From contig PKUJ01000011.1 of NCBI GenBank assembly GCA_002869565.1, positions 1 through 64,000 on the forward strand: 64,000 nt of DNA, read 5' to 3'. A program made the position numbers and the translations under genes. Under the pieces are notes generated by a model. That model ran no database searches, was not told the origin of the DNA, and saw nothing but the letters and a program-made list of their open reading frames with translations. Shown here piece by piece: positions 8,560 to 27,239 of the stretch. Positions within the stretch are counted from its first letter, which is position 1, and each line of letters starts with the position of its first letter. Source of the DNA: Arcobacter sp. Its GTDB lineage: Bacteria > Campylobacterota > Campylobacteria > Campylobacterales > Arcobacteraceae.

Positions 8560-9153
8560 TTAAGAGTATTTGGGTTTAAAATTCATCTCACATCGAAGAG
8601 AATCTCTTTGCTCATTTGTTTGATTTAAGGGCTTACATTTCTTAAGATTTTCCAGACAATTATATGCTAAATTTGTATACTCTACTGTACCTGCTTTTTT
8701 CCAAGATATCTCTTCTTTTTTAAGCTCTCTTCTTACTTTTGCAGGATTTCCAAATGCTAAATGATTATCTGGAATTACTGTTTTTGATGGAACTAAAGAT
8801 GAAGCTCCAATTATTGAATTTTCACCAATTACAGCTTCATCCATAATAACAGACCCCATGCCAACCATTGCGTTAAATTTTACATGACAACCGTGTAAAA
8901 TTGCACTATGTCCTATATGTCCATATTCTTCAACTATTACATCAATATTTGGAAAAGAATGACAAACACAACAATCTTGAATATTTGCATTTTTTTTAAT
9001 AATAATTCTTCCAAAATCTCCTCTTATAGAAGCATTAGGTCCAATATAGACCCCCTCTTCTATAAAAACATCACCAATAATTACAGCTGTTTCATGAACA
9101 AATGCTTTCTCGCTAATTACTGGAATTAATCCATCAATTTCATAAATTTGCAC
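8560..9153 (-). CDS. paaY: PaaY, gamma-carbonic-anhydrase-like thioesterase of phenylacetate pathway
   Basis: 197 aa, left-handed beta-helix hexapeptide repeats. The three metal-binding histidines lie in CHSFP and EYGHIGHSA. PaaY proteins hydrolyse the ring-hydroxylated CoA dead-end product of the Paa pathway and so rescue CoA. The C-terminal extension (about 150-197) is typical for PaaY against ordinary gamma carbonic anhydrases. The start is GTG at 9153-9151 and its first base is the last base of the paaN stop (TAGTG on the minus strand), so translation is coupled. Confidence 0.85.
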   Translation of the reverse strand: MQIYEIDGLIPVISEKAFVHETAVIIGDVFIEEGVYIGPNASIRGDFGRIIIKKNANIQDCCVCHSFPNIDVIVEEYGHIGHSAILHGCHVKFNAMVGMGSVIMDEAVIGENSIIGASSLVPSKTVIPDNHLAFGNPAKVRRELKKEEISWKKAGTVEYTNLAYNCLENLKKCKPLNQTNEQRDSLRCEMNFKPKYS

Positions 9154-10811
9154 TAGGCATCCCTTTTTATTGTAACAACAGAATAACGTCCTGAAACAAA
9201 ATTGTCATTTGATAATGCACAATTTGCAGCTTTATTATCTCCTGTTGCATGAAAATCAGTAAAAGCAGCAGAATGATTCATCAGTACATGACCAGTTAAA
9301 TTAACAGATAAATTAACTTTTTCTTCAATTGCTATATCTTCCACTTTTTCTAAATACTCTTCGTCTGATGTATATACACCTGCTGTAATTGCACCATGAA
9401 GTTCTACTGTTTCTTGCCACACTTTTAAACTATCTTCTCTTGATTCAGTCTCAATAAGTAAAATAATAGGTCCAAAATGTTCATTGTGATATTTCTCTTT
9501 ATCTTTAGCAGAAACTTTTACAATTACTGGTGTTTTAATTGTAGCATTTTCAAACATAGGATGCTTAATATTTTTTGATTTTAAAATTATTTCACCTATA
9601 TCTGCTGCTTTTTCAACTCTTTTGCAAATATCGCTATTTTGAATTGCACCCAAAATTTCTACTGCTCTTTCATCAACAGAAAGAAGTTTTTCAACACTAT
9701 TAGCTATCATTGAAGCAACTTCATCAAAACTAACTCTTTCTCCATTTGAGATAATTCCATCTTTAGGGATAAATATATTTTGCGGAGCTGTACACATTTG
9801 TGATGAATATAATGATAATGCCATAGAGATATTTCTAGACATTCCTTTTAAGTTATCATAATTATCTACAATTAGACAGTTTACTCCTGCTTTTTCAGTA
9901 TATACATTAGCTTGTGGAGCATTGTCTTCTAACCAATCACCAAATGAAGTACTACCTGTAAAATCTATGATTTTTACATTTTTATTTTTAACTAGATTTT
10001 GAGTTTGAGTTCTATCATCACTTATAATCATAGATACTAAATTAGGATTTATGCCATTCTCCTCTAATACTTCTCTTGCAATATCAACTGTTAAGGCAAT
10101 TGGCAAAATTCCATTTCTATGTGGTTTATAAATAATAGAATTCCCTGTAACTAAAGATGCAAATAGTGCTGAATATGAGTTCCAAGTTGGAAATGTAGAG
10201 CAAGTAATAATTAAAGAGATTCCCCTTGGTGCAAGCTTTAATTTTTTGTTAACTACGATAGGAGGATTATCTTTTCCTGTTGGTTTTTCAAATATAGATT
10301 CACTAGGTATTGCGGATAATTGTTTATATGCATAAGCTAAAGCTTCTAGCCCCCTATCTTGAGCATGTGGACCTCCCGCTTGGAATGCCATCATATATGG
10401 CTGACCTGTAGTATGCATAACTGCATTTGCCATTTCAAATGATCTTTTATTGATTCTATCTAAGATTTCTAAACAAATTCCAGTTCTCTCATCTAAACTC
10501 AATTTTTTCCATTGATTCATTGCTTCCTTTGAATTTTCTACTAAAATATCAGCATCAATAGAAGGATAAGTAATCCCTAAATCAAATCCATAAGGAGACT
10601 TTTCTGCTCCTAAATATTTATCTATATCTAAACCTTTAATTTCATATCTATTATTTAGTTGAGATTTAAAAGAGTTTATAGCTTCTTCCTTTTTCCCTTC
10701 ACCATAAACCTTCGAACTTGGTATTTCAAAATAAGGAGTCCAGAATCCTCTATTTTTAATTTCTTCTAATGCTCTTGTTAGTATTTCATTATGTTTCGTA
10801 AAAAGACACAT
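9153..10811 (-). CDS. paaN: PaaN-type aldehyde dehydrogenase of phenylacetate degradation (no MaoC hydratase domain)
   Basis: 552 aa. An aldehyde dehydrogenase domain fills the protein. The catalytic Cys lies in SSQMCTAPQNIFIP, with the Glu region in YTEKAGVNC and a FTGS nucleotide motif. It matches the PaaN (PaaN_2) group, which oxidises the semialdehyde formed by ring opening. E. coli PaaZ (about 680 aa) also carries a C-terminal MaoC-like hydratase that opens oxepin-CoA; that domain is absent here, so a separate crotonase must do that step. An aaaggattaaa SD precedes ATG at 10811. First gene of the leftward paa unit. Confidence 0.85.
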   Translation of the reverse strand: MCLFTKHNEILTRALEEIKNRGFWTPYFEIPSSKVYGEGKKEEAINSFKSQLNNRYEIKGLDIDKYLGAEKSPYGFDLGITYPSIDADILVENSKEAMNQWKKLSLDERTGICLEILDRINKRSFEMANAVMHTTGQPYMMAFQAGGPHAQDRGLEALAYAYKQLSAIPSESIFEKPTGKDNPPIVVNKKLKLAPRGISLIITCSTFPTWNSYSALFASLVTGNSIIYKPHRNGILPIALTVDIAREVLEENGINPNLVSMIISDDRTQTQNLVKNKNVKIIDFTGSTSFGDWLEDNAPQANVYTEKAGVNCLIVDNYDNLKGMSRNISMALSLYSSQMCTAPQNIFIPKDGIISNGERVSFDEVASMIANSVEKLLSVDERAVEILGAIQNSDICKRVEKAADIGEIILKSKNIKHPMFENATIKTPVIVKVSAKDKEKYHNEHFGPIILLIETESREDSLKVWQETVELHGAITAGVYTSDEEYLEKVEDIAIEEKVNLSVNLTGHVLMNHSAAFTDFHATGDNKAANCALSNDNFVSGRYSVVTIKRDA

Positions 10812-11016
10812 TTTAATCCTTTATGTAATATATTTTTTAAAATATTAATATATAATTTATTAACCTAATATTAAATATACTACTTAATCCTCATAAAAAT
10901 GGTATTTTTTAAGAGAATAGCAAAAAAATAGCATTTATTTTTAAGCTTTATTATATATTACATTTGTTAGAATTTTTCTAGTTTTTTTGAAATAGATATA
11001 TTATTTGGAGGAGAAA
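10812..11016. promoter_or_regulatory. Divergent control region between paaN and paaF operons
   Basis: 205 nt of very AT-rich DNA separate the divergent paaN (leftward) and paaF (rightward) starts. It contains the phased AATAGCA repeat described separately and a 6-bp site AAGCTT at about 10942. SD ggagga sits at 11007-11012. PaaX, encoded at 18351, would be expected to act here, but I could not recognise the E. coli PaaX palindrome. Confidence 0.6.
10916..10933. promoter_or_regulatory. Direct repeat AATAGCA with 11-bp period
   Basis: AATAGCA occurs at 10916-10922 and 10927-10933, one helical turn apart, in the paaN/paaF control region. The same pair with the same period occurs before livK at 27222-27239. 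Such spacing suits a regulator dimer binding one DNA face. The binding protein is unknown. Confidence 0.45.
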
Positions 11017-11787
11017 ATGGGCTTTAAAGATATTAAAGTAGATGTTGAATACTCACATATACTTACAATTACACTTAATAGAAGTGAAGTTTATAATGCA
11101 TTAAGAACTAATACCTTAAAAGAAATACACGAAGTGTTACAAAATAGTTCTGATGAGATTAGATGTGTAATATTAACTGGAGGAGAAAAAGTATTTGCTG
11201 CGGGAGCAGATATTAATGAACTTGAAGTTAAAGGTGCAATTGAATCAATAAACGATGTAAGAACTTCTTATTGGGATTCTATTAAAGATTTTAAAAAGCC
11301 TATTATTGCTGCGGTAAACGGATTTTGTTTAGGTGGAGGATGTGAACTTGCTATGCATTGTGACATTATTATATGCGGAGATAATGCACAATTTGGACAG
11401 CCTGAAATTAATTTAGGAATCATGCCAGGAGCTGGTGGTACACAAAGGACAGTAAAAGCAATGGGCAAATCAAATGCCATGTTAATACTTTTAACAGGAG
11501 ATTTCATTGATGCTAAGACTGCTCAAAAGATGAACTTAGTATCAGAAGTAGTTCCCGTACAAAGCACAATGATTAGAGCGATGGAAATTGCAAATAAAAT
11601 TGCAAAAAAATCTCCACTAGCAATTACAGCAATCAAAAATGCTGTTTTAGCATCATATGATAGTGGATTAAGTGCTTCATTAAAATATGAAAAAACAATT
11701 TTCTCAGGAATATTATCTAGTGAAGATAAAAAAGAGGGAATTAGTGCATTTAAAGAAAAAAGAAAACCAAATTTTAAAGGACAATAA
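11017..11787 (+). CDS. paaF: PaaF-type enoyl-CoA hydratase
   Basis: 256 aa from ATG 11017. An upstream in-frame TTG at 11005 lies before the SD ggagga (11007-11012) and cannot be the start. It is a crotonase with both catalytic glutamates: GGGCELAMHCD and FGQPEINLGIMPGAGG. The oxyanion-hole segment GGEKVFAAGADINE is intact. PaaF hydrates 2,3-dehydroadipyl-CoA in the lower pathway. First gene of the rightward paa operon, 2 nt before paaG. A second crotonase of the same type at 21772 makes it uncertain which of the two acts on dehydroadipyl-CoA and which on the oxepin ring. Confidence 0.8.
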   Translation: MGFKDIKVDVEYSHILTITLNRSEVYNALRTNTLKEIHEVLQNSSDEIRCVILTGGEKVFAAGADINELEVKGAIESINDVRTSYWDSIKDFKKPIIAAVNGFCLGGGCELAMHCDIIICGDNAQFGQPEINLGIMPGAGGTQRTVKAMGKSNAMLILLTGDFIDAKTAQKMNLVSEVVPVQSTMIRAMEIANKIAKKSPLAITAIKNAVLASYDSGLSASLKYEKTIFSGILSSEDKKEGISAFKEKRKPNFKGQ

Positions 11788-11789
11788 TA

Positions 11790-12581
11790 ATGTCATACGA
11801 AACAATAAAATATGAAATAAATAAAGGTATAGCTACTTTAACTTTTAATAGACCAGAAGTATTTAACTCACTAAATGAGCAAATGCATGGAGAAATAAAA
11901 GATGCTTTACAAAATATAAAAAAAGATAAATCTATTAGGGTATTGATAATCACAGGAGAAGGCAAAGCATTTTGTGCAGGTCAAGATTTAAACGATAGAT
12001 CTGTAAATAATAGTGATGAAAAGCTTGATTTAGGTGAATCAATTGAAAAAAAATATAACCCACTAATTAAAACTATATATAACTTAGAAATACCAGTTAT
12101 TTGTAAAGTAAATGGAGTAGCAGCAGGTGCAGGAGTTGGGATTGCCCTAGCTTGTGACTTTGTAATTGCAAATGAAAAGGTATCATTTATACAAGCATTT
12201 TGCAAAATTGGATTAGTTCCTGATAGTGGTAACTCTTTCTTTTTACCACAACTTGTAGGAATGGCAAGAGCAAAAGAGTTGTGTATGTTAGGGAACAAAC
12301 TTCCTGCACAAACTGCATTGGAGTATGGACTGATTTCAAGAGTATATTCGCTTGATACAATTGATGAAGAAGTTCAAAAACTAGCTGTTCATTTTTCAAC
12401 TGCTCCAACATATGGACTATCTTTAATAAAAAAAGCATTAAATCAATCCGTTGAGAACTCATTAGAAGAACAATTAGAATTAGAAAAGAACCTACAAAGA
12501 GCAGCTGGACACTCAAATGATTATAAAGAGGGGGTTGCTGCTTTCTTAGAAAAAAGAACTCCTAATTTTAAAGGAAATTAA
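11790..12581 (+). CDS. paaG: PaaG, oxepin-CoA-forming isomerase
   Basis: 263 aa crotonase-fold enzyme. It lacks the hydratase glutamates and carries the PaaG isomerase pattern AAGAGVGIALACDFVI and SFIQAFCKIGLVPDSG, whose Asp is the catalytic residue. PaaG converts the 1,2-epoxide of phenylacetyl-CoA to the seven-membered oxepin-CoA and also isomerises double bonds further down. One small difference is PDSGN where most PaaG proteins have PDSGG. It overlaps neither neighbour: 2 nt from paaF, 1 nt to paaH. Confidence 0.85.
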   Translation: MSYETIKYEINKGIATLTFNRPEVFNSLNEQMHGEIKDALQNIKKDKSIRVLIITGEGKAFCAGQDLNDRSVNNSDEKLDLGESIEKKYNPLIKTIYNLEIPVICKVNGVAAGAGVGIALACDFVIANEKVSFIQAFCKIGLVPDSGNSFFLPQLVGMARAKELCMLGNKLPAQTALEYGLISRVYSLDTIDEEVQKLAVHFSTAPTYGLSLIKKALNQSVENSLEEQLELEKNLQRAAGHSNDYKEGVAAFLEKRTPNFKGN

Positions 12582-12582
12582 T

Positions 12583-14103
12583 ATGAGAATAGATTCAAAT
12601 TCAATTATTGGAATTGTTGGTGCTGGAATTATGGGTAGAGGTATTGCTCAAGTTGCAGCAAAAGCAGGTCATAAAGTAATACTATATGATAATTGGGATG
12701 GAGCAGTTGATAATGCAATGAATATCAATGAAAAAGAGTTATCAAAACTTGTTGAAAAAGGGAAAATGACTCAAGAAACTAAAGATAAAACAATATCTCT
12801 AATGACCCCAACTATGCAAATAGAAGATTTGGCTCCTTGTGATTTAATAATTGAAGCGATTATTGAAAACAAAGAGATTAAGCAAGAGATATTTAAACAA
12901 CTTGAAGATATTTGTGGAGATGTATGTATCGCCTCAAATACTTCATCTATTTCTATTTCTGCATTAGCAAATGGTCTTAAAAGACCTGATAGAATGGTAG
13001 GTATGCATTTTTTTAACCCAGCACCTATTATGAAACTAGTAGAAGTGATTTCTGGCTTACAAAGTGATAAACAGCTAGTAGAAGATGTTTATAATCTAGC
13101 TAATTCTTGGGGTAAAAAAGCAGTTTTTGTTAAATCTAGTCCAGGATTTATAGTAAATAGAATTGCAAGACCTTTTTATGCTGAAGCATTAAGATTATAT
13201 GAGGAGGGAGTGTCAACTTTTGCAACAATTGATGAAGTGGCAAGAACATCTGGTAGATTTAAAATGGGTCCATTTGAACTTATGGATTTGATTGGAAATG
13301 ACACAAACTATTCTGTTACTGAATCAACTTTTAATTCATACTATCAAGATTCTAGATTTAATCCCTCATTAACACAACAAGAGTTCTCACAAGCTGGATT
13401 ACTTGGAAGAAAATCAGGTATAGGTTTTTATAAATATGAAGATGGAAAACAACTATGTAGAGAAAAATATAACGAAGTAGAACCATCAAATAATAAAATA
13501 TCAGATATTACAGTATTTGGTTCTTTAGGTGTAGCTAATGAATTAATCCCATTGTTTAAAAAAGCTGGAATTAATGTAATTGAAGATGAAGGTGATGGGT
13601 ATATTGAATTCAATGATATAAAACTATTTTTAACAAATGGAAAAATGGCAAGCCAAATCTCTAAAGAGTTAAATGAAAAAAATATTGCTCAATTTGATAT
13701 CAATATAGATTATGATTTAACAGATTCGATAACTATTGCAACTTCACTACTAGCACAAAAACATGTTGAAAAAAACATTGCAGCACTTTTTACACAAATT
13801 GGCAAAAGAACTCTAATAATAAAAGATTCTCCTGCAATGGTAATATCAAGAACTATATCTATGTTAGTAAATGAAGCAAGTTCCACTGTTACAAATGGTG
13901 TTTGTGATGAAGCTAGTGTTGATATTGCTATGGAAAATGGTGTAAATTATCCAATTGGTCCATTTAAATGGGCAGATAAATTAGGTATTGATTTTATATT
14001 AGAAACATTAAACAATTTAGAATCATTTTATAAAGATACTAGATATAGAGTAGATAGAGGTATCATAGAAAAATCAATTATAGGTGGAAAATATTATGAG
14101 TGA
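12583..14103 (+). CDS. paaH: PaaH, 3-hydroxyadipyl-CoA dehydrogenase
   Basis: 506 aa. An N-terminal NAD-binding Rossmann fold starts with VGAGIMGRGIAQVAAKAGH. The 3HCDH signature follows (NTSSISISALA, GMHFFNPAPIMKLVEVI, KSSPGFIVNRIARP). The C-terminal half holds a second, degenerate 3HCDH region and a final helical domain with VNYPIGPFKWADKLG, as in long PaaH proteins. It oxidises 3-hydroxyadipyl-CoA to 3-oxoadipyl-CoA with NAD. Its stop lies inside the start region of paaI. Confidence 0.88.
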   Translation: MRIDSNSIIGIVGAGIMGRGIAQVAAKAGHKVILYDNWDGAVDNAMNINEKELSKLVEKGKMTQETKDKTISLMTPTMQIEDLAPCDLIIEAIIENKEIKQEIFKQLEDICGDVCIASNTSSISISALANGLKRPDRMVGMHFFNPAPIMKLVEVISGLQSDKQLVEDVYNLANSWGKKAVFVKSSPGFIVNRIARPFYAEALRLYEEGVSTFATIDEVARTSGRFKMGPFELMDLIGNDTNYSVTESTFNSYYQDSRFNPSLTQQEFSQAGLLGRKSGIGFYKYEDGKQLCREKYNEVEPSNNKISDITVFGSLGVANELIPLFKKAGINVIEDEGDGYIEFNDIKLFLTNGKMASQISKELNEKNIAQFDINIDYDLTDSITIATSLLAQKHVEKNIAALFTQIGKRTLIIKDSPAMVISRTISMLVNEASSTVTNGVCDEASVDIAMENGVNYPIGPFKWADKLGIDFILETLNNLESFYKDTRYRVDRGIIEKSIIGGKYYE

Positions 14104-14530
14104 AACAAAACTTTGTTTTAAAGTAGCAGAAAAAATGATGGCCAATACAAAATTTGAACATACCCTTGGTATGAAATTATTAGAAGTGGAAGAAGGCTAT
14201 GCAAAAATGGAAATGGAAGTTACCCAAAAGATGTTAAATGGTCATGGAACTTGTCAAGGTGGGGCTATTTTTTCTTTTGCTGATGCAGCTTTTGCTATTG
14301 CTTGTAACTCAAGAAATATTGCAACTGTAGCAGCTTCTTGTGATATAAGTTTTGTAAAACCTGCTTTTTTAGGAGATACACTATATGCAAGTGCTACGGA
14401 AAAATATTTAAAAGGTAGAAATGGTATATATGATATTTTAGTTGTAAATCAAAAGTTTGAATCAGTAGCATTTTTCACTGGTAAATCAAAAGCTATAAAA
14501 GGCAGTATATTAGAGGAGAAGGAACTATAA
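14096..14530 (+). CDS. paaI: PaaI hot-dog thioesterase
   Basis: 144 aa from ATG 14096, which has SD aggtgg at 14082-14087; an upstream in-frame GTG at 14084 overlaps that SD and is less likely. PaaI motif GHGTCQGGAIFSFADAAFAIACNS with the catalytic Asp region, then ASCDISFVKPAFLGDTLYA. PaaI hydrolyses (hydroxy)phenylacetyl-CoA and frees CoA when the pathway stalls. It overlaps paaH by 8 nt and shares one base (taATG) with paaJ, so three genes are translationally coupled. Confidence 0.85.
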   Translation: MSETKLCFKVAEKMMANTKFEHTLGMKLLEVEEGYAKMEMEVTQKMLNGHGTCQGGAIFSFADAAFAIACNSRNIATVAASCDISFVKPAFLGDTLYASATEKYLKGRNGIYDILVVNQKFESVAFFTGKSKAIKGSILEEKEL

Positions 14531-15747
14531 TGAATGAAGCATATATTATAGATTATATTAGAACACCAATTGGCTCATATGGAGGTGCATTATCTTCTAT
14601 TAGACCTGATGATATGGGTGCAATTCCACTTAGTTATCTAATGAAAAATAATCCTAGTATAAACTGGGAAGAACTTGATGATGTAATTTTTGGTTGTGCA
14701 AATCAAGCTGGTGAAGACAATAGAAATGTTGCAAAAATGTCAGCACTATTAGCAGGACTTCCTTATCAAAGTGGGGGTACAACAGTTAATAGACTTTGTG
14801 GTTCAGGAATGGATGCAATTGGTATTGCAGCACGATCTATAAAAGCTGGTGAGTGTGATTTAATAATTGCAGGTGGAGTAGAATCAATGTCAAGAGCTCC
14901 ATTTGTTATGCCTAAAGCTGAGACTGCATTTACAAGAGCAAATAATGTATATGATACAACTATTGGTTGGAGATTTACAAACCCTAAAATGAATGAAATG
15001 TTTGGAACAGATTCTATGCCTGAAACAGGAGAAAATGTAGCCTACGAGTTTGGAATCACAAGAAAAGACCAAGATAAATTTGCTTTTAATTCACAACAAA
15101 AATGCAAAGAGGCTATGCAAAAGGGTTTTTTCAAAAATGAGATAACACCTGTTCTTGTAAAAAGAAGAAAACAAGATGATTTAATTGTTGACCAAGATGA
15201 ATATCCTAAACCAAATACTACATTAGAAAAATTAGCAGCACTTAGAACTCCTTTTAAAAAGGAAGGGGGTACAGTAACAGCAGGTAATGCTTCAGGGGTA
15301 AATGATGGCGCAGGAGCAATGATAATTGTCTCAAAAAATGCTGTTGAAAAATATAATCTAAAACCGAAAGCTAAAATCGTAATGATGGCTGTAGCTGGTG
15401 TTCCTCCAAAAATCATGGGAATAGGACCACTTTACTCATCAAAAAAGATTTTAGAAAAAACTGGCATGACAATAGATGATATGGATGTAATTGAACTAAA
15501 TGAAGCTTTTGCTTCTCAAGGATTGGCAACATTAAGAGGTTTAGGGTTAAAAGATGATGATCCAAAAGTTAACCCAAATGGTGGAGCAATATCTTTAGGT
15601 CACCCATTAGGAATGAGTGGAACAAGACTTGTTATGACTGCACTAAACCACTTGGAGCAAACAAAAGGAAGATATGGGCTTTGTACTATGTGTATTGGTG
15701 TAGGGCAAGGTATATCTATGATAATAGAAAATTTAAATAGGGATTAG
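14530..15747 (+). CDS. paaJ: PaaJ, 3-oxoadipyl-CoA thiolase
   Basis: 405 aa thiolase. Nucleophilic Cys in VNRLCGSGMDAIG, His in GHPLGMSGTRL, and second Cys in LCTMCIGVGQG are all in place, with GGVESMSRAPFVM before them. It cleaves 3-oxoadipyl-CoA, and in the PaaJ version also the dehydro form, to succinyl-CoA and acetyl-CoA. The same family serves the beta-ketoadipate pathway as PcaF; the operon supports PaaJ. Confidence 0.9.
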   Translation: MNEAYIIDYIRTPIGSYGGALSSIRPDDMGAIPLSYLMKNNPSINWEELDDVIFGCANQAGEDNRNVAKMSALLAGLPYQSGGTTVNRLCGSGMDAIGIAARSIKAGECDLIIAGGVESMSRAPFVMPKAETAFTRANNVYDTTIGWRFTNPKMNEMFGTDSMPETGENVAYEFGITRKDQDKFAFNSQQKCKEAMQKGFFKNEITPVLVKRRKQDDLIVDQDEYPKPNTTLEKLAALRTPFKKEGGTVTAGNASGVNDGAGAMIIVSKNAVEKYNLKPKAKIVMMAVAGVPPKIMGIGPLYSSKKILEKTGMTIDDMDVIELNEAFASQGLATLRGLGLKDDDPKVNPNGGAISLGHPLGMSGTRLVMTALNHLEQTKGRYGLCTMCIGVGQGISMIIENLNRD

Positions 15748-15756
15748 GAGAATAAA

Positions 15757-17058
15757 ATGGAAAATAAAAGAAAAACTGTAAGTTATTATCCAAAAGTTCT
15801 TGTTTCAAAAGATGAACTTACTGCTTTACAAACAAGAAGAATGAAACACACATTGTTAAGAGCTTATTCTTTTGTACCTTATTATAAAAAAAAATGGGAC
15901 GATCATGGTGTTCATCCAGATGATTTTACTTTTTTAGAAGATATTAATAAGTTTCCTTTTACTACAAAAGAGGATTTAAGATTAAACTATCCATTTGGAA
16001 TGTTTGCAAATCCTATGAGTGATATTGTAAGACTTCATGCTTCAAGTGGAACAACTGGTAAACCAACTGTTGTTGGATATACAAGACAAGATATTGATAC
16101 TTGGTCTGATTTAGTTGCTCGTTCACTTAGACTTGCAGGTGGTGGGAAAGGTGATATAGTTCATGTATCTTATGGATATGGTCTATTTACTGGAGGTTTA
16201 GGTGCTCATTATGGGGCAGAAAAACTTGGTTGTACAGTTGTTCCTGCTTCTGGTGGTTTTACTGATAAACAAGTTACTTTAATAAATGACTTCAAAGCAA
16301 ATGTAATAATGGTTACACCATCATATATGCTAAATATTATTGAAGAAATGGAAAACAGAGGAATAGATCCAAAAGAGACTGCACTTAAAATTGGTATTTT
16401 TGGGGCTGAACCTTGGTCTATGGAAATGAAAAGAAATATTGAAGAAAAAGTTGGAATTGATGCTCTTGACATTTATGGTTTATCTGAAATGATGGGTCCG
16501 GGTGTAGCTTGTGAAGTTTTAGAAGATAGAGGTGATTTATATGTTTGGGAAGACCACTTTTACCCTGAGATTGTTGATAAAGATACCTTTAATCCTCTTC
16601 CTGATGGAGAAGAAGGTGAGTTAGTTTTAACTACTTTAACAAAAGAAGCTTTACCAATTATTAGATATAGAACAAAGGATTTATCAACACTATATAAAGG
16701 TGATCTTTTAAATATGCGAAAAATGAAAAGAATTCATGCAAGAACAGATGATATGATGATTATTAGAGGGGTAAATGTATTCCCATCACAAATTGAAGAG
16801 ATTTTGATGAAAATTGAGGCATTTTCTCCTTATTATCAAATTGTAATTTCAAGAACTGGAAATATGGATGATTTAGCTATAGATATAGAACCAGAATTAA
16901 CAGCAAGCGATATTGAAATAAGTGAAGCAATAAAAACTCTAATTCACAAAATAAAATCAGGTATTGGAGTATCTGTAAAAGTAAATGTAAAAAAACATGG
17001 TGAGGTTCCAAGAAGTCAAGGGAAAGCTCAAAGAGTAGTAGATACAAGGGAAAACTAG
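15757..17058 (+). CDS. paaK: PaaK, phenylacetate-CoA ligase
   Basis: 433 aa. AMP-forming ligase of the short PaaK type: phosphate-binding HASSGTTGKPTVVGY, then GLFTGGLGAHYGAEKLG, YGLSEMMGPGVACE and the C-terminal RGVNVFPSQIEEILM. It activates phenylacetate (or a close aromatic acid) to the CoA thioester, so CoA-bound intermediates are used from the first step. The SD aggag lies just before ATG 15757. PaaK-like ligases can also take other phenylacetates, and the natural substrate cannot be read from the sequence. Confidence 0.9.
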   Translation: MENKRKTVSYYPKVLVSKDELTALQTRRMKHTLLRAYSFVPYYKKKWDDHGVHPDDFTFLEDINKFPFTTKEDLRLNYPFGMFANPMSDIVRLHASSGTTGKPTVVGYTRQDIDTWSDLVARSLRLAGGGKGDIVHVSYGYGLFTGGLGAHYGAEKLGCTVVPASGGFTDKQVTLINDFKANVIMVTPSYMLNIIEEMENRGIDPKETALKIGIFGAEPWSMEMKRNIEEKVGIDALDIYGLSEMMGPGVACEVLEDRGDLYVWEDHFYPEIVDKDTFNPLPDGEEGELVLTTLTKEALPIIRYRTKDLSTLYKGDLLNMRKMKRIHARTDDMMIIRGVNVFPSQIEEILMKIEAFSPYYQIVISRTGNMDDLAIDIEPELTASDIEISEAIKTLIHKIKSGIGVSVKVNVKKHGEVPRSQGKAQRVVDTREN

Positions 17059-18350: not shown

Positions 18351-19295
18351 TTGAATAATAGTGAATATAATGAAGTAGATGAATATCTAAAAGAGATACT
18401 AGAGGAAATATCACCAAAAGCGAAATCTTTGATTATTACATTTTTTGGAGATACTGTTTTTCCATATGGAGGAACAATATGGCTAGGTTCTTTAGTTAAA
18501 TTTATGGAAGAATTTGACATTAGTGAAAAACTAACAAGAACTTCTATCTTTAGACTTACAAAAGAAGGCTGGTTAAGTTCAAAAAAATTTGGAAGAGAGA
18601 GTTACTATTCATTAAGCGATTTGGCTATTGATAGATTTATAAAAGCCCACTATAGCGTATATGCATATGATGAACAAGATAAAGACAAAGATTGGCTAGT
18701 TCTTTTCACAAATGCTGTAAAACCTGAAAATGAATTTGAATTAAGTAAGGTTCTAAAAAAAGAAGGTTTTGCCAATCCTTCAAAACATGTACATATTCAT
18801 CCTCATTATAAAATGGAATATATGCAAGATATTTTATTAAAGAATGAACTTCAAAATGAAGTTCTTTTAGTAAAAGGTCCAATTCATATGCCTATGAATA
18901 AAGAGATGATAAAAGATATGGTTCATACTTATTGGGATTTAGACCATGTGGAAGAGAGATATCAAGATTTTATTACTAAATTTAGAAGAATATTTTCACT
19001 TAAAACCCCTATAGAACAATTTACTGATAAACAATGTTTTATATTAAGAATTATGCTTATTCACGAATATAGAAGAGCTTTATTATTCGATCCAAAACTT
19101 GGGAATGATTTAGTATCAGTTGATTGGTTAGGGAAAGCGGCTTCATCTCTTGTTGAATCAATTTATGGAAAAATTCATAATCAAGCAAATACTTATGTAC
19201 AAAGCAATCTTCTAACTGTTGGAGGTAACAATCCTAAATTAGATAAATTCTATTTTAATAGATTTGGTGGAATAGATAATTCTGCTAAAAAATAA
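18351..19295 (+). CDS. paaX: PaaX family transcriptional repressor
   Basis: 314 aa, close to E. coli PaaX (316 aa). An N-terminal winged-helix (about 15-85) contains AKSLIITFFGDTVFPYGGTIWLGSLVKFM and TRTSIFRLTKEGWLSSKKFGRESYYSLS, both hallmarks of PaaX. The central and C-terminal domains contain MLIHEYRRALLFDPKLG and DWLGKAA. PaaX represses paa genes and releases DNA on binding phenylacetyl-CoA. The start is TTG at 18351 with SD gagga at 18339-18343; no ATG fits. It follows a 153-nt gap, so it may have its own promoter. Confidence 0.9.
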   Translation: MNNSEYNEVDEYLKEILEEISPKAKSLIITFFGDTVFPYGGTIWLGSLVKFMEEFDISEKLTRTSIFRLTKEGWLSSKKFGRESYYSLSDLAIDRFIKAHYSVYAYDEQDKDKDWLVLFTNAVKPENEFELSKVLKKEGFANPSKHVHIHPHYKMEYMQDILLKNELQNEVLLVKGPIHMPMNKEMIKDMVHTYWDLDHVEERYQDFITKFRRIFSLKTPIEQFTDKQCFILRIMLIHEYRRALLFDPKLGNDLVSVDWLGKAASSLVESIYGKIHNQANTYVQSNLLTVGGNNPKLDKFYFNRFGGIDNSAKK

Positions 19296-19405: not shown

Positions 19406-20380
19406 TTATTTTGCCCCAAGTTTATCAACGATTTTTTTACAAGAGTTTACAAAAGATACTCCTCCAGCTATATAAACAGAATGATTAGAAAGATCTGAAA
19501 GCAATTGCGGTAAAACTTTTTCAATTCTTCCTTCTAATCCACCTTCTTTATTACTCTCTTGAGTAAGAGTAAATTTGTATTTAAAGTTTACATATTTAGA
19601 TTCTAAATATTTAAGTTTTCCAAAATCAAGTAAATCTGCTTTTGTTTTTGCGGAAAACAAAAGTGTTACCGGATTTTTATGACCTCTACTTAAGTAGGCA
19701 TTTAAAAGTGATAAAATAGGAGCTAAACCACTTCCTGATGCAAGACATAAAATAGGAGTATCAACACTAGGATCTCCTAAAAAAGTTCCATATGGTGCAT
19801 TTATTTTAATATTATCACCAATATTTACTTCTTCATGAATCCAAGGTGAAGTTTTTCCTTCTCTTTCTTTAGTAATAAGAAAAGACAATTCTCCATTAGG
19901 TTTTGGTGAATTAGCAATAGAATATGGTCTTAAAGGATGTCCTGTAGACTCATCTCCAATCATTGCATATTGACCTGGCCAGAATTTAATTCCTTGCCCA
20001 AGAGGAGATAATCTTAACTCAAGAATTTTTTCTGTTCGTTGAATTTTATCTGTAACAATATGCCAAGAATTTTCTACTGGTGGGAATAATTTGGGTTGTG
20101 CATCTTCAGTACCAAACTCTATTTCTAAAACATCAGAAGTTGGTTTAGCCATACACATAAGACCATAACCTCTATCTCTATCTTCTTGAGATAAAGCCAT
20201 GTCCATAATAAAACCTTGATCAAACTCACCACTTAAAACTTTTATTTTACATTCACCACATGCTCCAGCTCTACAATTATTTGGTAAAGCATAGCCTTGT
20301 TTTTCAAGAACAGATAAAACAGTTTCTCCTGAAGGACAATCTATTTCTTTCCCTGATGGCTGCATAATAATCTTTTTCAT
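19406..20380 (-). CDS. Oxygenase reductase: N-terminal 2Fe-2S ferredoxin, FAD and NAD domains
   Basis: 324 aa. Residues about 1-90 form a plant-type 2Fe-2S ferredoxin with Cys in NCRAGACGECKIKV and a fourth in GLMCMAKP. An FAD domain follows (about 105-200, with RPYSIANSP). The NAD domain is about 205-320 (LASGSGLAPILSLL). This order is that of MmoC, DmpP and TmoF-type reductases. PaaE has the reverse order, FAD-NAD first and ferredoxin last, so this is not a PaaE orthologue. It lies 41 nt after the di-iron gene on the same strand and probably feeds electrons from NADH to it. Confidence 0.85.
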   Translation of the reverse strand: MKKIIMQPSGKEIDCPSGETVLSVLEKQGYALPNNCRAGACGECKIKVLSGEFDQGFIMDMALSQEDRDRGYGLMCMAKPTSDVLEIEFGTEDAQPKLFPPVENSWHIVTDKIQRTEKILELRLSPLGQGIKFWPGQYAMIGDESTGHPLRPYSIANSPKPNGELSFLITKEREGKTSPWIHEEVNIGDNIKINAPYGTFLGDPSVDTPILCLASGSGLAPILSLLNAYLSRGHKNPVTLLFSAKTKADLLDFGKLKYLESKYVNFKYKFTLTQESNKEGGLEGRIEKVLPQLLSDLSNHSVYIAGGVSFVNSCKKIVDKLGAK

Positions 20381-20421
20381 ATCAAATTCCTGGTCATTTT
20401 ATTTATATTTTTTAATTTTTA

Positions 20422-21447
20422 CTAGAATACTGGGATAATATCTTCCATATCAATATCACTAATTTCTTTTCCCGTAATTCCAACTTCAGGAATTGCTGGA
20501 AAGTCTGTATCATATTTGTCTAATACACCTTTTAAATTAAGCATTGCTTTTTTCCAGTTTTCTTTTTTTGTTTCATAATCTGGAATAAAGAAACCAGCTT
20601 CTCTTGCTAATCTTTCACCTTCTCTTTGATTTTCAATAAAATCTTCTGGAATATCCCAGAATTCCATTGGTGGCTCAAATAATACTGCAGATAAGAATAA
20701 ATAACCTGCTCTAATTTGTTTAGTAATAATCTCTTTATCTTCTTGTGCTAATTTTGGATAATCTCTTTCCATTAATGTTAAAACGATAGCCATATGTCTA
20801 CCTTCATCTTTACCAATTTTAGAGAATCCTTCTTTAAATACTAACTCTTCACATCCTGCTGCCATTTGGTGAAAAATTGTTGCGGCTGCAATTTCACCCA
20901 TAAGGAATGAAGAGAATAATACTGCTAGTGAATATTTAGGTACTGCACTTTTAAATCCGTCCCAGTATCTACCTCCATTGTAATATAACCATTTAGCATT
21001 TTTTTGTAATCTTCTTCCAATATCTGTTTTTGGTTCATAAGTTATTGGATCTGGATGTTCTAACATTTTAGTAATAACTAAACCACACATTTGTTCATGA
21101 TTTTGTTCATCTCTTGTTACAGAGAAGAAACATCTTCTTACTACATCTTCTTCATGTAATTCATAAGTTTTAATAAATGCAGATGCAAATACAGGTGGTG
21201 CTGATGCATCAAATACTGAAAGAATTGTCCACCAGTATGCAATTGATTCTCTTTGTTCCCATGTATATTTTGTTACATCAAATGTATCCCATGGTAATTT
21301 TTCAGGATCCCAATATTCTCTTTGAGATGCTTCCCATACTTCTTGCAACTTTGTAGTTACATTTTCCCAACTTAATGGATAAATATTTGGTTGTGGTGTT
21401 GCTGGTGGAAATTCCATAGTTCCAGCTAATTTTTCTTTAGATGCCAT
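20422..21447 (-). CDS. Ferritin-like di-iron carboxylate protein, putative aromatic/CoA-ester oxygenase
   Basis: 341 aa, soluble and helical. Two ExxH motifs, TRDEQNHEQM (E114, H117) and GKDEGRHMA (E215, H218), each follow an acidic residue about 30 positions earlier (D80 in SVFDAS and E185 in MGEIAA). This is the ligand layout of the R2/BMM/ferritin-like di-iron fold. It is not PaaA, PaaC or BoxB by motif or length. A reductase gene follows directly. Position within the paa island and the absence of paaABCDE here suggest it oxygenates phenylacetyl-CoA or a related aromatic. Other options are a hydroxylase or desaturase that acts before the pathway, or a radical or N-oxygenase-type enzyme. 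SD aggag precedes ATG 21447. Confidence 0.75.
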   Translation of the reverse strand: MASKEKLAGTMEFPPATPQPNIYPLSWENVTTKLQEVWEASQREYWDPEKLPWDTFDVTKYTWEQRESIAYWWTILSVFDASAPPVFASAFIKTYELHEEDVVRRCFFSVTRDEQNHEQMCGLVITKMLEHPDPITYEPKTDIGRRLQKNAKWLYYNGGRYWDGFKSAVPKYSLAVLFSSFLMGEIAAATIFHQMAAGCEELVFKEGFSKIGKDEGRHMAIVLTLMERDYPKLAQEDKEIITKQIRAGYLFLSAVLFEPPMEFWDIPEDFIENQREGERLAREAGFFIPDYETKKENWKKAMLNLKGVLDKYDTDFPAIPEVGITGKEISDIDMEDIIPVF

Positions 21448-21771: not shown

Positions 21772-22551
<780 letters not shown>

Positions 22552-22554
22552 CTT

Positions 22555-23280
22555 TTACATTCCTAAATATGCTTCTTTAACTCTTGGATCTTTTACTAAA
22601 TCCTTAGAGTTTCCACTTAAAACAATCTCACCATTTTCTAAAACATATGCTCTATCTGAAATAGTTAGTGCAAAATAGGAGTTTTGTTCAACCAAAAATA
22701 CAGTCATGTGAAGTTTTTTTAGTTCTTCAATGAATGCAAATATTTCTTCAACAATAACAGGAGCTAATCCCATAGAAGGTTCGTCCATCAGTAATAAATC
22801 TGGTTTAGACATTAATGCTCGCCCAATAGCTAACATCTGTTGTTGACCACCAGAAAGATTACCCGAAATCAAATCTTTCTTTTCAAACAAAATTGGAAAT
22901 TTTTCATATACAAATTCTAAATCTTTTTGTATTTCAACTTTATCATTTCTTGTATACGCACCTAACATCAGATTATCTTCCACTGTTAAAGATTTAAAAA
23001 GTTCTCTTCCTTCAGGAACTTGTGCAATTCCAAGTTTTACTCTCTTTTCAGGTTCTGTATCAGTAATATTAATATTATCTTTAAAAGTAATTTCACCTCT
23101 ATTTTGTTCTTTAAGACCAGAAATTGTTCTCATTAAAGTTGTCTTCCCTGCACCATTTGCTCCGATTAAAGCTACTATTTCTCCTCTATGTACTTCAAGA
23201 TTAATATCTTGTAGCACATGAATATTTCCATAATGACAATCTAACTTTTCAATATTTAATACTAAATCAGACTTATGCAT
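22555..23280 (-). CDS. livF: LivF-type ABC transporter ATPase
   Basis: 241 aa from ATG 23280, which has an aaggg SD seven bases upstream; an in-frame GTG at 23295 is less likely. Walker A GANGAGKTT, signature LSGGQQQMLAIGRAL, Walker B LLLMDEPS, and the short ATPase typical of the branched-chain amino acid (HAAT) family. It overlaps livG by 8 nt. Operon context points to uptake of an aromatic acid rather than an amino acid. Confidence 0.88.
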   Translation of the reverse strand: MHKSDLVLNIEKLDCHYGNIHVLQDINLEVHRGEIVALIGANGAGKTTLMRTISGLKEQNRGEITFKDNINITDTEPEKRVKLGIAQVPEGRELFKSLTVEDNLMLGAYTRNDKVEIQKDLEFVYEKFPILFEKKDLISGNLSGGQQQMLAIGRALMSKPDLLLMDEPSMGLAPVIVEEIFAFIEELKKLHMTVFLVEQNSYFALTISDRAYVLENGEIVLSGNSKDLVKDPRVKEAYLGM

Positions 23281-24043
23281 GTAATGACCCTTCACCTAAA
23301 TAAGCTTTTATAACCTCAGGATTTGATGAAATTTCAGAAGGTGTTCCTTCTGCCAATTTAACTCCAAAATTGACAACAGTAATATGATCTGAAATATTCA
23401 TAATCATTTTCATATCATGTTCTATTAATAAAACAGTTACCCCTTCAGCTGCTATTTCTTTAATTATAACTGCAATTTCTGATGTTTCTGTTCCATTTAA
23501 CCCAGCAACTGGTTCATCTAATAAAAGCAATCTTGGATTAATTGCAAGAGCTCTAACAATTTCAACTTTTTTTAATATTCCATAAGATAATTCCGAACAC
23601 AAAGTTTCTGCATGTTCTTCTAAGCCAACTCTTTTTAAATGAGAAAGAGCAATATGTCTAAATTTCTCTTCATCATCCATAATTGATTCAAATCTAAATG
23701 AACACTTTAAAAGTGATTTATTCATATTTATATTAAAGCCTAATAGAACATTTTCCATAACTGTCATATTTTTACAAATTTCTAAATTCTGAAAAGTTCT
23801 CATAATATGTTTATTTACTAATTTATAGGTAGGAACATTTGTGATTTTTTCATCAGCAAAATATATATCACCCTCATCAACAGAATATATGCCTGAAATC
23901 ATATTTACTAATGTAGTTTTACCTGCACCATTTGGTCCAATCAAGGCGTGTATTGTTCCCTCTTTAACTTCAAAAGAGATATTATCAACAGCTTTTAATC
24001 CCCCAAAACTTTTACAGATGCCATCAATTTTTAATAAACTCAT
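23273..24043 (-). CDS. livG: LivG-type ABC transporter ATPase
   Basis: 256 aa. Walker A GPNGAGKTT, signature LSYGILKKVEIVRAL (degenerate, as usual in LivG), Walker B LLLLDEPVAGLN. The long insertion between Walker A and the signature is typical of LivG. ATGA overlap with livM: start codon and livM stop share bases 24040-24043. Pairs with LivF to power import. Confidence 0.88.
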   Translation of the reverse strand: MSLLKIDGICKSFGGLKAVDNISFEVKEGTIHALIGPNGAGKTTLVNMISGIYSVDEGDIYFADEKITNVPTYKLVNKHIMRTFQNLEICKNMTVMENVLLGFNINMNKSLLKCSFRFESIMDDEEKFRHIALSHLKRVGLEEHAETLCSELSYGILKKVEIVRALAINPRLLLLDEPVAGLNGTETSEIAVIIKEIAAEGVTVLLIEHDMKMIMNISDHITVVNFGVKLAEGTPSEISSNPEVIKAYLGEGSLHA

Positions 24044-25005
24044 GTATTATCCTTTTTGATTTCACTCTTTTTTTCAACTTTTAAAACATCAAAAATAGAA
24101 ACAATACCTTTTGGCATAAAAATCATTACAAAAATAATAATTGCACCAAATACCATTTGCTCGTAATCATGTAAAAATGTCAAAAACTGAGGAAGAGCAG
24201 TGATAATTATTGCACCAAAAACTGCACCATAAATTCTACCAAGTCCTCCAAAAACAATCATTACTACAAGTTGAATACTTCTCATAAATCCAGACTCTTC
24301 AGGTGAAATAAAACCTGTATAATATGAGTAAAGACTTCCAGCAACTGTTGCAATTACTACAGAAATTACAAATACATAGGTTTTATAATATGGAACATCA
24401 GCTCCAATTGCTTTTGCGGCAGTTTCCGAATCTCTAATACATCTAAGAATTCTTCCAAATGGTGAATTTACAACATTTTGTAAAGCCCAAATTGAGAATA
24501 CTAAAAATACTGCCGATAATACATACCATTGAATATCATTTTCAAATACATATCCAAAAATATCAAAAGTGCTTACACCCATTCCATCAGGTCCACCAGT
24601 CAATTGATCTTCATTTGTTAATACAATAGAAATTATAATACCAACAGCTAGAGTTCCCATTGCAAGATAATGTCCTTCAAGTTTTAATATAGGTTTAGAT
24701 ACAAAGTAAGCAATTATTGCTAATACAACTGAAGCAATTAAAATACTTAATACAGGATCGAACTCATAAGTTGTAGATAAAATAACTGCTACATAAGCTC
24801 CAAGACCTGCAAAAGCTCCATGGCCAAGGGATATTTGACCTGTATATCCAACAAGCATATTAAGTCCAATACAAATTACAGCATTTAACATACACATAAT
24901 TGCAATTTCATAGTGAAAACTATTCTGTAATAAAAAAGGTAATAAGCATAAAACAATAATTGTTATGACAATACCTCTATCTAAAAATACACCTTTATTT
25001 CCCAT
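24040..25005 (-). CDS. livM: LivM-type ABC transporter permease
   Basis: 321 aa, about nine membrane helices. The HAAT permease signature GYTGQISLGHGAFAGLGAYV lies near residue 50, and a conserved loop RILRCIRDSETAAKAIGADV lies near residue 190. It forms the membrane channel with LivH. Start ATG at 25005, 8 nt after livH stop. Confidence 0.88.
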   Translation of the reverse strand: MGNKGVFLDRGIVITIIVLCLLPFLLQNSFHYEIAIMCMLNAVICIGLNMLVGYTGQISLGHGAFAGLGAYVAVILSTTYEFDPVLSILIASVVLAIIAYFVSKPILKLEGHYLAMGTLAVGIIISIVLTNEDQLTGGPDGMGVSTFDIFGYVFENDIQWYVLSAVFLVFSIWALQNVVNSPFGRILRCIRDSETAAKAIGADVPYYKTYVFVISVVIATVAGSLYSYYTGFISPEESGFMRSIQLVVMIVFGGLGRIYGAVFGAIIITALPQFLTFLHDYEQMVFGAIIIFVMIFMPKGIVSIFDVLKVEKKSEIKKDNT

Positions 25006-25013
25006 GACGTAAC

Positions 25014-25883
25014 CTATACTCTTGTTGATTTCTTCGCCCCAAATAAACCACCTGGGAAAAAGAATAAAATTAAAAGTAGTACAATAAATGCAACTGCATC
25101 TTTGTATTCACTACTTAAATAACCAGCAACGAAAGATTCTAAAATTCCTAGAACTACTCCTCCAAATACTGCACCAAATGGATTACCTATACCACCAATA
25201 ATAGCTGCACAAAATCCCTTAAGACCTAACATAATTCCAATTTCATAATTAGTTGATGTAATTGGAGTTAATACAATTCCTCCAATAGCTGCAATACCTG
25301 CACTAATCATAAAATTCATAATTAGCATTTTTTTAACAGAAATACCAACAAGTTTTGCGGCATCTTTATTATCTGCTGTCGCAAGCATTGCTTTTCCTAT
25401 CTTTGTTTTGTTAAATAAATAATACAATCCAAAAACAATACAAAGTGAAACAACAATTACTAAAATTGCTTGAGGTGTTATAGTTGCACCAAATATAGAA
25501 ATTGGTGTATCACTTATAAATGCTGGCAAGGTATGCATTTGTTTATCAAATCCAACTTGCGCTGCACCTCTTACAAAGATAGAATAACCTAATGTTAAAA
25601 TAATCAATGATGTAACTGATGAGTTACTAGACATTGAAACTAATTTAAAAAGCATATATCCTAACAAAGAAGATACTATTATCGCCAAAGGAAATGCTAA
25701 GACAAATGGAAATTTTGCATATGATAAAAATACTGCAGCCATTCCTCCTATCATTACAAACTCCCCTTGCGAGAAGTTTATAATTTTACTCGAGTTATAA
25801 ATAACAGTGAATCCTAAACCTACTAGTGCATAGATGAACCCAACTGTTATACCTCCAAATGAGTATTGTAATAATTCAACCAT
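25014..25883 (-). CDS. livH: LivH-type ABC transporter permease
   Basis: 289 aa, about eight membrane helices, with IINFSQGEFVMIGGM near residue 35 and the cytoplasmic coupling segment ATADNKDAAKLVGISV near 165. These are standard for the LivH permease of the HAAT family. 4 nt separate it from livK. Confidence 0.88.
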   Translation of the reverse strand: MVELLQYSFGGITVGFIYALVGLGFTVIYNSSKIINFSQGEFVMIGGMAAVFLSYAKFPFVLAFPLAIIVSSLLGYMLFKLVSMSSNSSVTSLIILTLGYSIFVRGAAQVGFDKQMHTLPAFISDTPISIFGATITPQAILVIVVSLCIVFGLYYLFNKTKIGKAMLATADNKDAAKLVGISVKKMLIMNFMISAGIAAIGGIVLTPITSTNYEIGIMLGLKGFCAAIIGGIGNPFGAVFGGVVLGILESFVAGYLSSEYKDAVAFIVLLLILFFFPGGLFGAKKSTRV

Positions 25884-25887
25884 TTTA

Positions 25888-27033
25888 TTACTTTGCTAAG
25901 GTCCAGTCACCATTTTTGATTTCAAGCATTTTTATACCAGAATCAATATCTAATCCTAAATGATCTTTTTTATTCATATTAAACATACCATTTAATCCAA
26001 CATAAGAAGTTGTACTTTCAAGAGCATCTCTAATTGCTTTGGGATCAGATGAGTTTGCTTTTTTTATTGCTTCAACAATTAAATTTAAAGCATCATATGC
26101 ATACCCACCAAATGTAGATACAGGAGCATTATATTTATCTTCATAATTTTTAATATAATCTAAGGCAATTTGTTTAATAGGATTTGAATCATCCAATAAA
26201 GAAGCAACAACAACAGGTGGTGAAGCTACTATTACTCCTTCACTAGCATTACCTGCTAACTCAATAAACTTTTTAGATGCAACACCATGTGATTGTACTA
26301 ATGTTTGAGTCATTCCTAATTGCTTAAAGTTTTTTGTAACAATTGCTGGACCTTGTCCAAAACCTGGATTTACAACAGCTTGAACATTATCTAAAGATTT
26401 TATTTTAGTTAATTGTGGTGTCATATCTGTATCTTTTGGACCATATGTTTCATCTGCAACAATATTAATTCCATAATCACCTGCAATTTCTATACACTGT
26501 CCTCTCATTGATTTACCAAAACCACCATTTCCAGAGATTAAGGCAACATTTGTTTTATTCTTAGCTTTTAAATAAGTAAATATTTTTTGACATGCCATTC
26601 TATCTGTAGCTGGCGTTTTAAATACATATTTTTTTACTGGTTCTACAATTTTGATTGATCCAGCCATAGAAACTAAAGGAATTTTAGCTTTTTTAATAAA
26701 TGGTAAAATTGCCATTGTTTCGCCAGATGCCGAACCTCCCATTATTGCAACAACTTCATCTTGATTAATAAGTCTTTTTACAAAGGTAGTTGCATTTTTA
26801 GGATTTGCACCAGTATCATAAGAAATAAGTTCTAATTTTTTACCTAATACTCCACCCTTAGCATTTATCTTTTCAACATATAATTCAAGAGTCTTTAACT
26901 CTGGATCACCCAAAAAAGAAGCTGGACCAGTCGCGGCAACTAAAGCACCAATTTTGATACTATCTTTTGCACTTGCACTTAATGTGAAACATAGAACAAA
27001 GAGTCCTAAAATTATTCTCATCATTTTTTTCAT
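25888..27033 (-). CDS. livK: LivK-type periplasmic substrate-binding protein
   Basis: 381 aa from ATG 27033, preceded by SD aaggatg. An in-frame start 60 nt further upstream would put 20 residues before the signal peptide and is rejected. Signal peptide about 1-22 (ends ASA), then a type-I periplasmic binding fold beginning IKIGALVAATGPASFLGDPELKTLE. It determines substrate specificity. Proteins of this group bind amino acids or aromatic acids such as benzoate-type compounds. Attachment to the paa island and the shared AATAGCA repeat favour an aromatic acid. First gene of the six-gene leftward operon. Confidence 0.85.
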   Translation of the reverse strand: MKKMMRIILGLFVLCFTLSASAKDSIKIGALVAATGPASFLGDPELKTLELYVEKINAKGGVLGKKLELISYDTGANPKNATTFVKRLINQDEVVAIMGGSASGETMAILPFIKKAKIPLVSMAGSIKIVEPVKKYVFKTPATDRMACQKIFTYLKAKNKTNVALISGNGGFGKSMRGQCIEIAGDYGINIVADETYGPKDTDMTPQLTKIKSLDNVQAVVNPGFGQGPAIVTKNFKQLGMTQTLVQSHGVASKKFIELAGNASEGVIVASPPVVVASLLDDSNPIKQIALDYIKNYEDKYNAPVSTFGGYAYDALNLIVEAIKKANSSDPKAIRDALESTTSYVGLNGMFNMNKKDHLGLDIDSGIKMLEIKNGDWTLAK

Positions 27034-27221
27034 ATTTACATCCTTTTTACTAAGATTCATATTCAAGACAAAGCTTAATATATCCTGATACAAGAAATTC
27101 TATTACAAGAAAACTTAAATTTTACATAAAAAAGTAGTACTTAATGTGTAAAGTTTAAAATTTATGTCATTTTTTTGTCATTATATTTTTTTTATGTAGT
27201 ATATTGTATTAAATTTAGAAA

Positions 27222-27239
27222 AATAGCATTAGAATAGCA
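27222..27239. promoter_or_regulatory. Direct repeat AATAGCA with 11-bp period upstream of livK
   Basis: AATAGCA at 27222-27228 and 27233-27239 repeats the motif and period seen in the paaN/paaF control region. A second phased pair, TGTCAT at 27165-27170 and 27176-27181, lies nearer the gene. The repeats stand about 130-205 nt before the livK start. Confidence 0.45.

Follow-up and report, generated by a model that had tools for sequence, protein, structure and literature searches.

DIFE-RED, a predicted two-component di-iron oxygenase and candidate arylacetyl-CoA epoxidase of phenylacetate gene clusters lacking PaaABCDE

The paa island and the DIFE-RED gene pair

The window, the 64,000-nucleotide stretch of Arcobacter sp. 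DNA that was analysed, carries a phenylacetate (paa) island in which paaN and paaY are divergent from paaF-G-H-I-J-K. NCBIfam models gave these genes and paaX the same names as the initial annotation. On the minus strand, paaY (8560..9153) was a clear match below the curated cut-off, and the aldehyde dehydrogenase gene paaN (9153..10811) scored 724 against a cut-off of 579. On the plus strand, the 1,2-epoxyphenylacetyl-CoA isomerase gene paaG (11790..12581; TIGR02280, 353.9 against a cut-off of 345), the thioesterase gene paaI (14084..14530) and the 3-oxoadipyl-CoA thiolase gene paaJ (14530..15747) lay above their cut-offs, while the enoyl-CoA hydratase gene paaF (11005..11787), the 3-hydroxyacyl-CoA dehydrogenase gene paaH (12583..14103) and the phenylacetate-CoA ligase gene paaK (15757..17058) were clear matches below theirs. 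The gene paaX (18351..19295, plus strand; 243 bits, cut-off 264.6) belongs to the repressor family of the pathway. In paa chemistry, ligation by PaaK is followed by epoxidation, isomerisation to the oxepin by PaaG, hydrolytic opening of the ring and oxidation by PaaZ, and beta-oxidation. The usual bacterial enzyme for the attack of oxygen on the ring of phenylacetate is the multi-subunit PaaABCDE, to which the epoxidation step has so far been assigned.

The initial annotation had found PaaABCDE missing from the island, and this extends to the genome (3.49 Mb, 99.7% complete), in which no match to PF05138, the family of PaaA and PaaC, was found at E<=0.001. Absence of the epoxidase is judged here and below by genome-wide searches for PaaA/PaaC. 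This result rules out a second paaABCDE elsewhere in the genome, and BoxB is ruled out as a substitute since even a weak PF05138 match is lacking. Another contig than that of the paa genes encodes a bacterial multicomponent monooxygenase (PF02332, two subunits; G000:C16:234340-236243), with an aldehyde dehydrogenase-like match ~8 kb away; this enzyme possibly serves phenol degradation.

Beside paaX, as the initial annotation had described, lie two minus-strand genes separated by 41 bp. DIFE (20422..21447) encodes a 341-aa predicted di-iron oxygenase component of ferritin-like fold and no named family, and RED (19406..20380) encodes a 324-aa NAD(P)H reductase component of the MmoC/BenC type, with its domains in the order Fer2-FAD-NAD. 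RED and paaX are convergent. Upstream of DIFE stand the third enoyl-CoA hydratase gene of the island (21772..22551, minus strand), itself conserved in Arcobacteraceae, and then a livFGMHK-type ABC transporter (22555..27093, minus strand) presumed to take up aromatic acids; between the hydratase gene and paaX there are DIFE and RED alone. Hydratase and transporter genes, on which the initial annotation is silent, are conserved together with the pair. The hydratase is possibly a separate oxepin-CoA hydrolase, as a PaaN-type pathway would need: PaaN has 551 positions, against 664 for the bifunctional PaaZ. Two further proteins of the window (17607-18197 and 28662-29444) have no Pfam match and keep the same island places in Arcobacteraceae at 58-76% identity.

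On its plus strand the window contains two copies of an 18-bp direct repeat, AATAGCA-N4-AATAGCA, one in the paaN/paaF intergenic region (10916..10933) and one upstream of livK (27222..27239); shuffles gave an expectation of 0.01 per window. The repeat probably serves the regulator of the island as an operator. Upstream of DIFE in the window itself, a search for such an operator found none. In the relative L015 the repeat occurs at 4224, 9780 and 20799 and precedes paaF, livK and DIFE, lying ~200 bp upstream of DIFE and otherwise at places matching those in the window. This arrangement, with the repeat before DIFE seen in L015 alone (L003 is that same relative), suggests that in this one relative DIFE, paaF and livK may form a shared regulon.

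Sequence and predicted fold of the two components

The metal ligands that had been proposed for DIFE, D80, E114xxH117, E185 and E215xxH218, are invariant in six sequences reaching down to 48% identity. They are likewise invariant in 40 aligned sequences, the others being 76-92% identical; the row used for numbering begins at codon 2 in this alignment, so that numbers are one lower there. Cys121 is also invariant, and the first ExxH motif reads ExxHxxxC. The radical tyrosine motif of ribonucleotide reductase (RNR) R2 is ExxHxxxY, which would put Cys121 at the place of that tyrosine. DIFE was ruled out as an RNR subunit on account of this replacement of Tyr by Cys, and it scored 15.9 with the RNR R2 subfamily model (cut-off 486).

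Searches of Pfam and NCBIfam with DIFE returned only sub-cut-off matches, and sequence searches of the PDB, whether started from the protein or from a six-row profile, returned nothing meaningful. PF05138 gave no match up to E=1 with DIFE and none at E<=0.01 with 40 relatives, and DIFE did not match PF02332. A family with another known substrate, which the initial annotation would have held against its own proposal, did not emerge from Pfam, NCBIfam or the PDB. The AlphaFold2 model of DIFE (pLDDT 84, pTM 0.85) is a ferritin-like bundle. Its best VIA-align match was R2lox (Z 16.2, rmsd 3.9, 247 aligned, 12% identity), followed by sMMO hydroxylase (Z 15.4, rmsd 4.1, 260 aligned), R2 (Z 15.2, rmsd 4.5, 244 aligned) and a chain of the PaaAC structure (3pwq; Z 14.8, rmsd 3.7, 227 aligned), with all top matches at 9-14% identity. 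Since these Z scores are close together and helical bundles can reach Z ~13 by arrangement alone, the predicted fold assigns DIFE to a superfamily and to no particular family. The ferritin-like fold predicted for DIFE is also that of PaaA, and the earlier description of the pair as an 'unrelated' oxygenase therefore goes too far.

The reductase has the domain order first read from its sequence, with Fer2 at residues 7-81, FAD_binding_6 at 112-200 and NAD_binding_1 at 213-315. RED scored 115.5 with the PaaE model (cut-off 420.8) and resembles BoxA in the NAD domain only (28.9 bits). In some 85,000 species genomes scanned, 425 DIFE relatives were found, of which the best 80 were read, so that locus statistics describe the close family and not its distant members; genes in high-GC loci were called by codon-position-weighted ORF picking. 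RED immediately follows DIFE in 72 of these best 80 loci. Because the ligands are invariant, the modelled fold is ferritin-like and the reductase gene is adjacent in so many loci, DIFE-RED is, by prediction, a two-component di-iron oxygenase.

Occurrence of the pair with and without PaaABCDE

Within Campylobacterota, DIFE and PaaN over its cut-off were found in exactly the same seven of 60 genomes, our own included, and none of the 60 had a PF05138 match. With our own genome left out, the identical set of 6 of 59 has a chance of ~2e-8 if the genomes are treated as independent, an assumption that holds only in part. A 298-genome sample of the phylum added one further DIFE bearer, the single-contig genome G109, which has PaaN and no PF05138 match. 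Nearest to the window's DIFE among the named loci are Arcobacter/Aliarcobacter records. The identical PaaN and DIFE genome sets, together with the conserved loci, rule out co-location of DIFE with paa genes by chance.

In the best 80 of the 425 relatives, paaX lies at most two genes from DIFE in 29 loci, and 32 loci lack any paa-specific gene within 10 kb. Three settings with paa genes were distinguished. In Comamonas, Marinospirillum, Nitrincola and relatives, paaK-DIFE-RED-paaABCDE form one operon; the pair sits between paaK and paaA in 11 loci with PaaABCDE operons. In Azospirillum, Roseateles, Curvibacter and others the order is paaX-DIFE-RED. In the Arcobacter group, Sedimenticola, a Chromatiales MAG, Polyangiaceae, Rhodospirillum and Rhodanobacter, DIFE-RED accompanies paa genes without paaABCDE. 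The initial annotation had pointed to paa loci lacking paaABCDE as the place to look for the pair; it was found there in several lineages, and it also occurs with paaABCDE, as in Marinospirillum, Nitrincola and Comamonas, a co-occurrence that the annotation had missed. Azoarcus/Pseudothauera loci have no paa gene near the pair. On a Vitreoscilla plasmid the pair is close to paaZ, between paaZ and an hpa cluster, with paaABCDE nearby.

On three Variovorax plasmids (L010, L011 and L013) a DIFE-RED pair of 48% identity belongs to what looks like a self-contained cluster, together with an indolepyruvate:ferredoxin oxidoreductase, an FAD-linked oxidase, a ligase, hydratases, an OB-fold protein, a thiolase and a Liv transporter, with no paaABCDE nearby; in L011 and L013 the cluster also includes PaaN. 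This cluster may be a separate arylpyruvate degradation pathway. The oxidoreductase, which yields arylacetyl-CoA, is near the pair in Variovorax and two other loci, and such a route has been described for phenylpyruvate (PMC9765128). Five loci (L046, L050, L052, L067 and L092) form one well supported DIFE group despite their distant taxonomy, being MAGs of Burkholderiaceae, Polyangiaceae, Desulfovibrionaceae and Rhodanobacter. The grouping looks as it would after recent transfer or misbinning, and the isolate names suggest that these come from insect-gut samples.

We then considered replacement of PaaABCDE in 50 DIFE genomes, including Arcobacter-type ones, that had been selected for a locus without a visible paaA. 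About 25 of these had a true PaaA and PaaC, four had one partly matched PF05138 protein, and 21 lacked PaaA/PaaC, three of the 21 with only a weak, BoxB-sized PF05138 match. Of the four single proteins (277-306 aa, 84-135 bits; G339:C53:249159, G341:C333:1167, G360:C100:15453 and G380:C235:24442), three are from Bdellovibrionota and one from Azospirillum isscasi, all with DIFE, and they are neither a PaaA+PaaC pair nor BoxB-sized. A ring-opening enzyme was kept in 20 of the 21 genomes lacking PaaA/PaaC, with PaaZ over its cut-off in nine (including G342, where it is cut by a contig end) and PaaN in eleven; they include Sedimenticola, Magnetospirillum, Rhodobium, Polyangiaceae and Arcobacter. 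Only one MAG (G358) had neither, and PaaK was over or close to its cut-off in most of the 21. The Magnetospirillum locus has paaF-G-H-I-J-K divergent from paaN-Y, the plan of the window, and Rhodobium orientis has paaG-I-J-K / paaN / liv, both with no paaABCDE in the stretch; two similar loci (L138 and L140) also have paa clusters without paaABCDE. In Sedimenticola (L081/L085) the order is paaK-J-H-G-F / paaZ-DIFE-RED / paaX / liv.

On the DIFE tree the PaaA/PaaC-less state changes seven times, and well-supported branches force at least four of these changes. DIFE proteins from genomes with and without PaaA are 76-97% identical to that of the window and are mixed on the tree. Several PaaA-less genomes are MAGs, where absence may reflect incompleteness or misbinning; the 'Stygiobacter' DIFE, which groups with Magnetospirillum, is an example of possible misbinning. 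More weight therefore falls on the isolates Sedimenticola hydrogenitrophicus, S. selenatireducens DSM 17993 and Rhodobium orientis DSM 11290, on the single-contig G109 and on our own genome. In several separate lineages, then, no candidate for the epoxidation step other than DIFE-RED came to light.

Proposed function and comparison with known systems

Taken together, these observations make it likely, as far as sequence can tell, that DIFE-RED takes the part of PaaABCDE as a ring epoxidase of phenylacetyl-CoA (arylacetyl-CoA), with two components, a di-iron site and a dependence on NAD(P)H and O2; gene content points to the same substrate and product. PaaK would make phenylacetyl-CoA, RED would hand electrons from NAD(P)H through FAD and the 2Fe-2S centre to the di-iron site of DIFE, and DIFE would activate O2 and form the ring 1,2-epoxide. 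PaaG would then isomerise the epoxide to the oxepin, a hydratase with PaaN (or PaaZ) would open and oxidise the ring, and PaaF, H and J would end the route by beta-oxidation. The initial proposal of a simpler epoxide-forming oxygenase thus stays the leading explanation, shorn of the word 'unrelated', with the same substitution in several unrelated lineages. DIFE-RED may replace PaaABCDE in some lineages, while in others it would duplicate the step, perhaps for conditions of low oxygen. Many DIFE bearers belong to genera of denitrifiers or microaerophiles, with which a low-oxygen role would fit. That the pair is a second, separately evolved aryl-CoA epoxidase family for low oxygen, giving microaerophiles and denitrifiers a two-protein paa route that PaaA/PaaC markers miss in many species, is a reading that we favour only slightly.

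Many genomes have both DIFE-RED and PaaABCDE, at times in one operon, and a different substrate would fit this too. If DIFE-RED epoxidised or hydroxylated another arylacetyl-CoA, such as 4-hydroxyphenylacetyl-CoA, indole-3-acetyl-CoA or another substituted phenylacetyl-CoA, and fed the shared paa lower pathway, then substrates would be divided where both enzymes exist. The shared operons, the placement of the Vitreoscilla pair next to an hpa cluster, and the distant Variovorax relatives, with their indolepyruvate:ferredoxin oxidoreductase and second set of thiolase, hydratase and ligase, speak for this reading. We nevertheless consider it unlikely, since lineages with PaaK, PaaG and PaaN/PaaZ and without PaaABCDE need an enzyme for phenylacetyl-CoA, and since the DIFE proteins of PaaA-bearing and PaaA-less genomes are so similar and intermingled. 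A peripheral oxygenase whose substrate, say a free aromatic acid or amine, comes before phenylacetyl-CoA in the route, and which is unconnected with ring epoxidation, would suit the transporter that adjoins the pair as well as the paa genes, and also the 32 of the best 80 loci without a nearby paa-specific gene. It would leave 20 genomes keeping a ring-opening enzyme without an epoxidase, and it sits poorly with the close paaX link, so that we give it very little credence; the earlier suggestion that the pair hydroxylates an aromatic upstream became less likely in the same way, because the paa route would then lack its epoxide-forming step. That another oxygenase of this genome, such as the PF02332 monooxygenase, does the step with DIFE-RED incidental is hardly credible at all, since that enzyme, present as it is, sits on a different contig, the substrates of characterised PF02332 enzymes are free hydrocarbons and phenols, and what repeatedly turns up within or next to paa islands lacking PaaABCDE is DIFE-RED.

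If the epoxidase reading is true, the distribution of the pathway needs re-counting (Arcobacteraceae, Sedimenticola, Magnetospirillum, Rhodobium and others), and surveys for the known epoxidase alone miss the pathway in many microbes. A two-protein ring epoxidase of ~75 kDa in total would be available for mechanism work and biocatalysis, and it could be tested whether bacteria maintain a second oxygenase for this step when oxygen is low. A description of DIFE-RED was not found in the literature covered, which was mostly open-access. A 2026 survey of the pathway puts PaaA and PaaC forward as its genomic markers and reports paa configurations without the core epoxidase; no proposal of a substitute was found there, and Arcobacter and Sedimenticola go unmentioned (PMC13186573).

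DIFE-RED resembles PaaABCDE, the 1,2-phenylacetyl-CoA epoxidase, in pathway position, gene neighbours, ferritin-like fold and a separate NAD(P)H flavin/2Fe-2S reductase. It differs in lacking a PF05138 match, in having a single oxygenase protein where PaaABCDE has PaaA+PaaC+PaaB(+PaaD), and in carrying the 2Fe-2S domain at the N-terminus of RED, whereas that of PaaE is C-terminal. Since all three tested features of that family (PF05138, the PaaA/PaaC/PaaB operon and the C-terminal ferredoxin) are absent, we call DIFE-RED a putative new form of aryl-CoA epoxidase, outside the PaaABCDE family. R2lox and class I RNR R2 are the best structural matches and share the ligand order D/E, ExxH, E, ExxH, but DIFE is only 10-14% identical to them, has Cys121 for the radical tyrosine, has its own reductase as partner, and shows no sequence match to the R2lox family. 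With sMMO and the bacterial multicomponent monooxygenases the pair shares the fold and the MmoC-type reductase order, and presumably a Cys at the ExxHxxxC place (Cys151 in MmoX); unlike them, it has no PF02332 match and no beta or gamma subunits or coupling protein adjoining. The AurF/CmlI arylamine N-oxygenases share the fold class and a weak profile match over residues 103-265 (PF11583, 15.9 bits against a cut-off of 29.6; 25.3 for the Variovorax relative). Closest in idea is the benzoyl-CoA 2,3-epoxidase BoxAB, a single di-iron oxygenase with a reductase acting on an aryl-CoA; PF05138 weakly picks up proteins of the size of BoxB (about 475-530 aa) in other genomes, but not the 341-aa DIFE.
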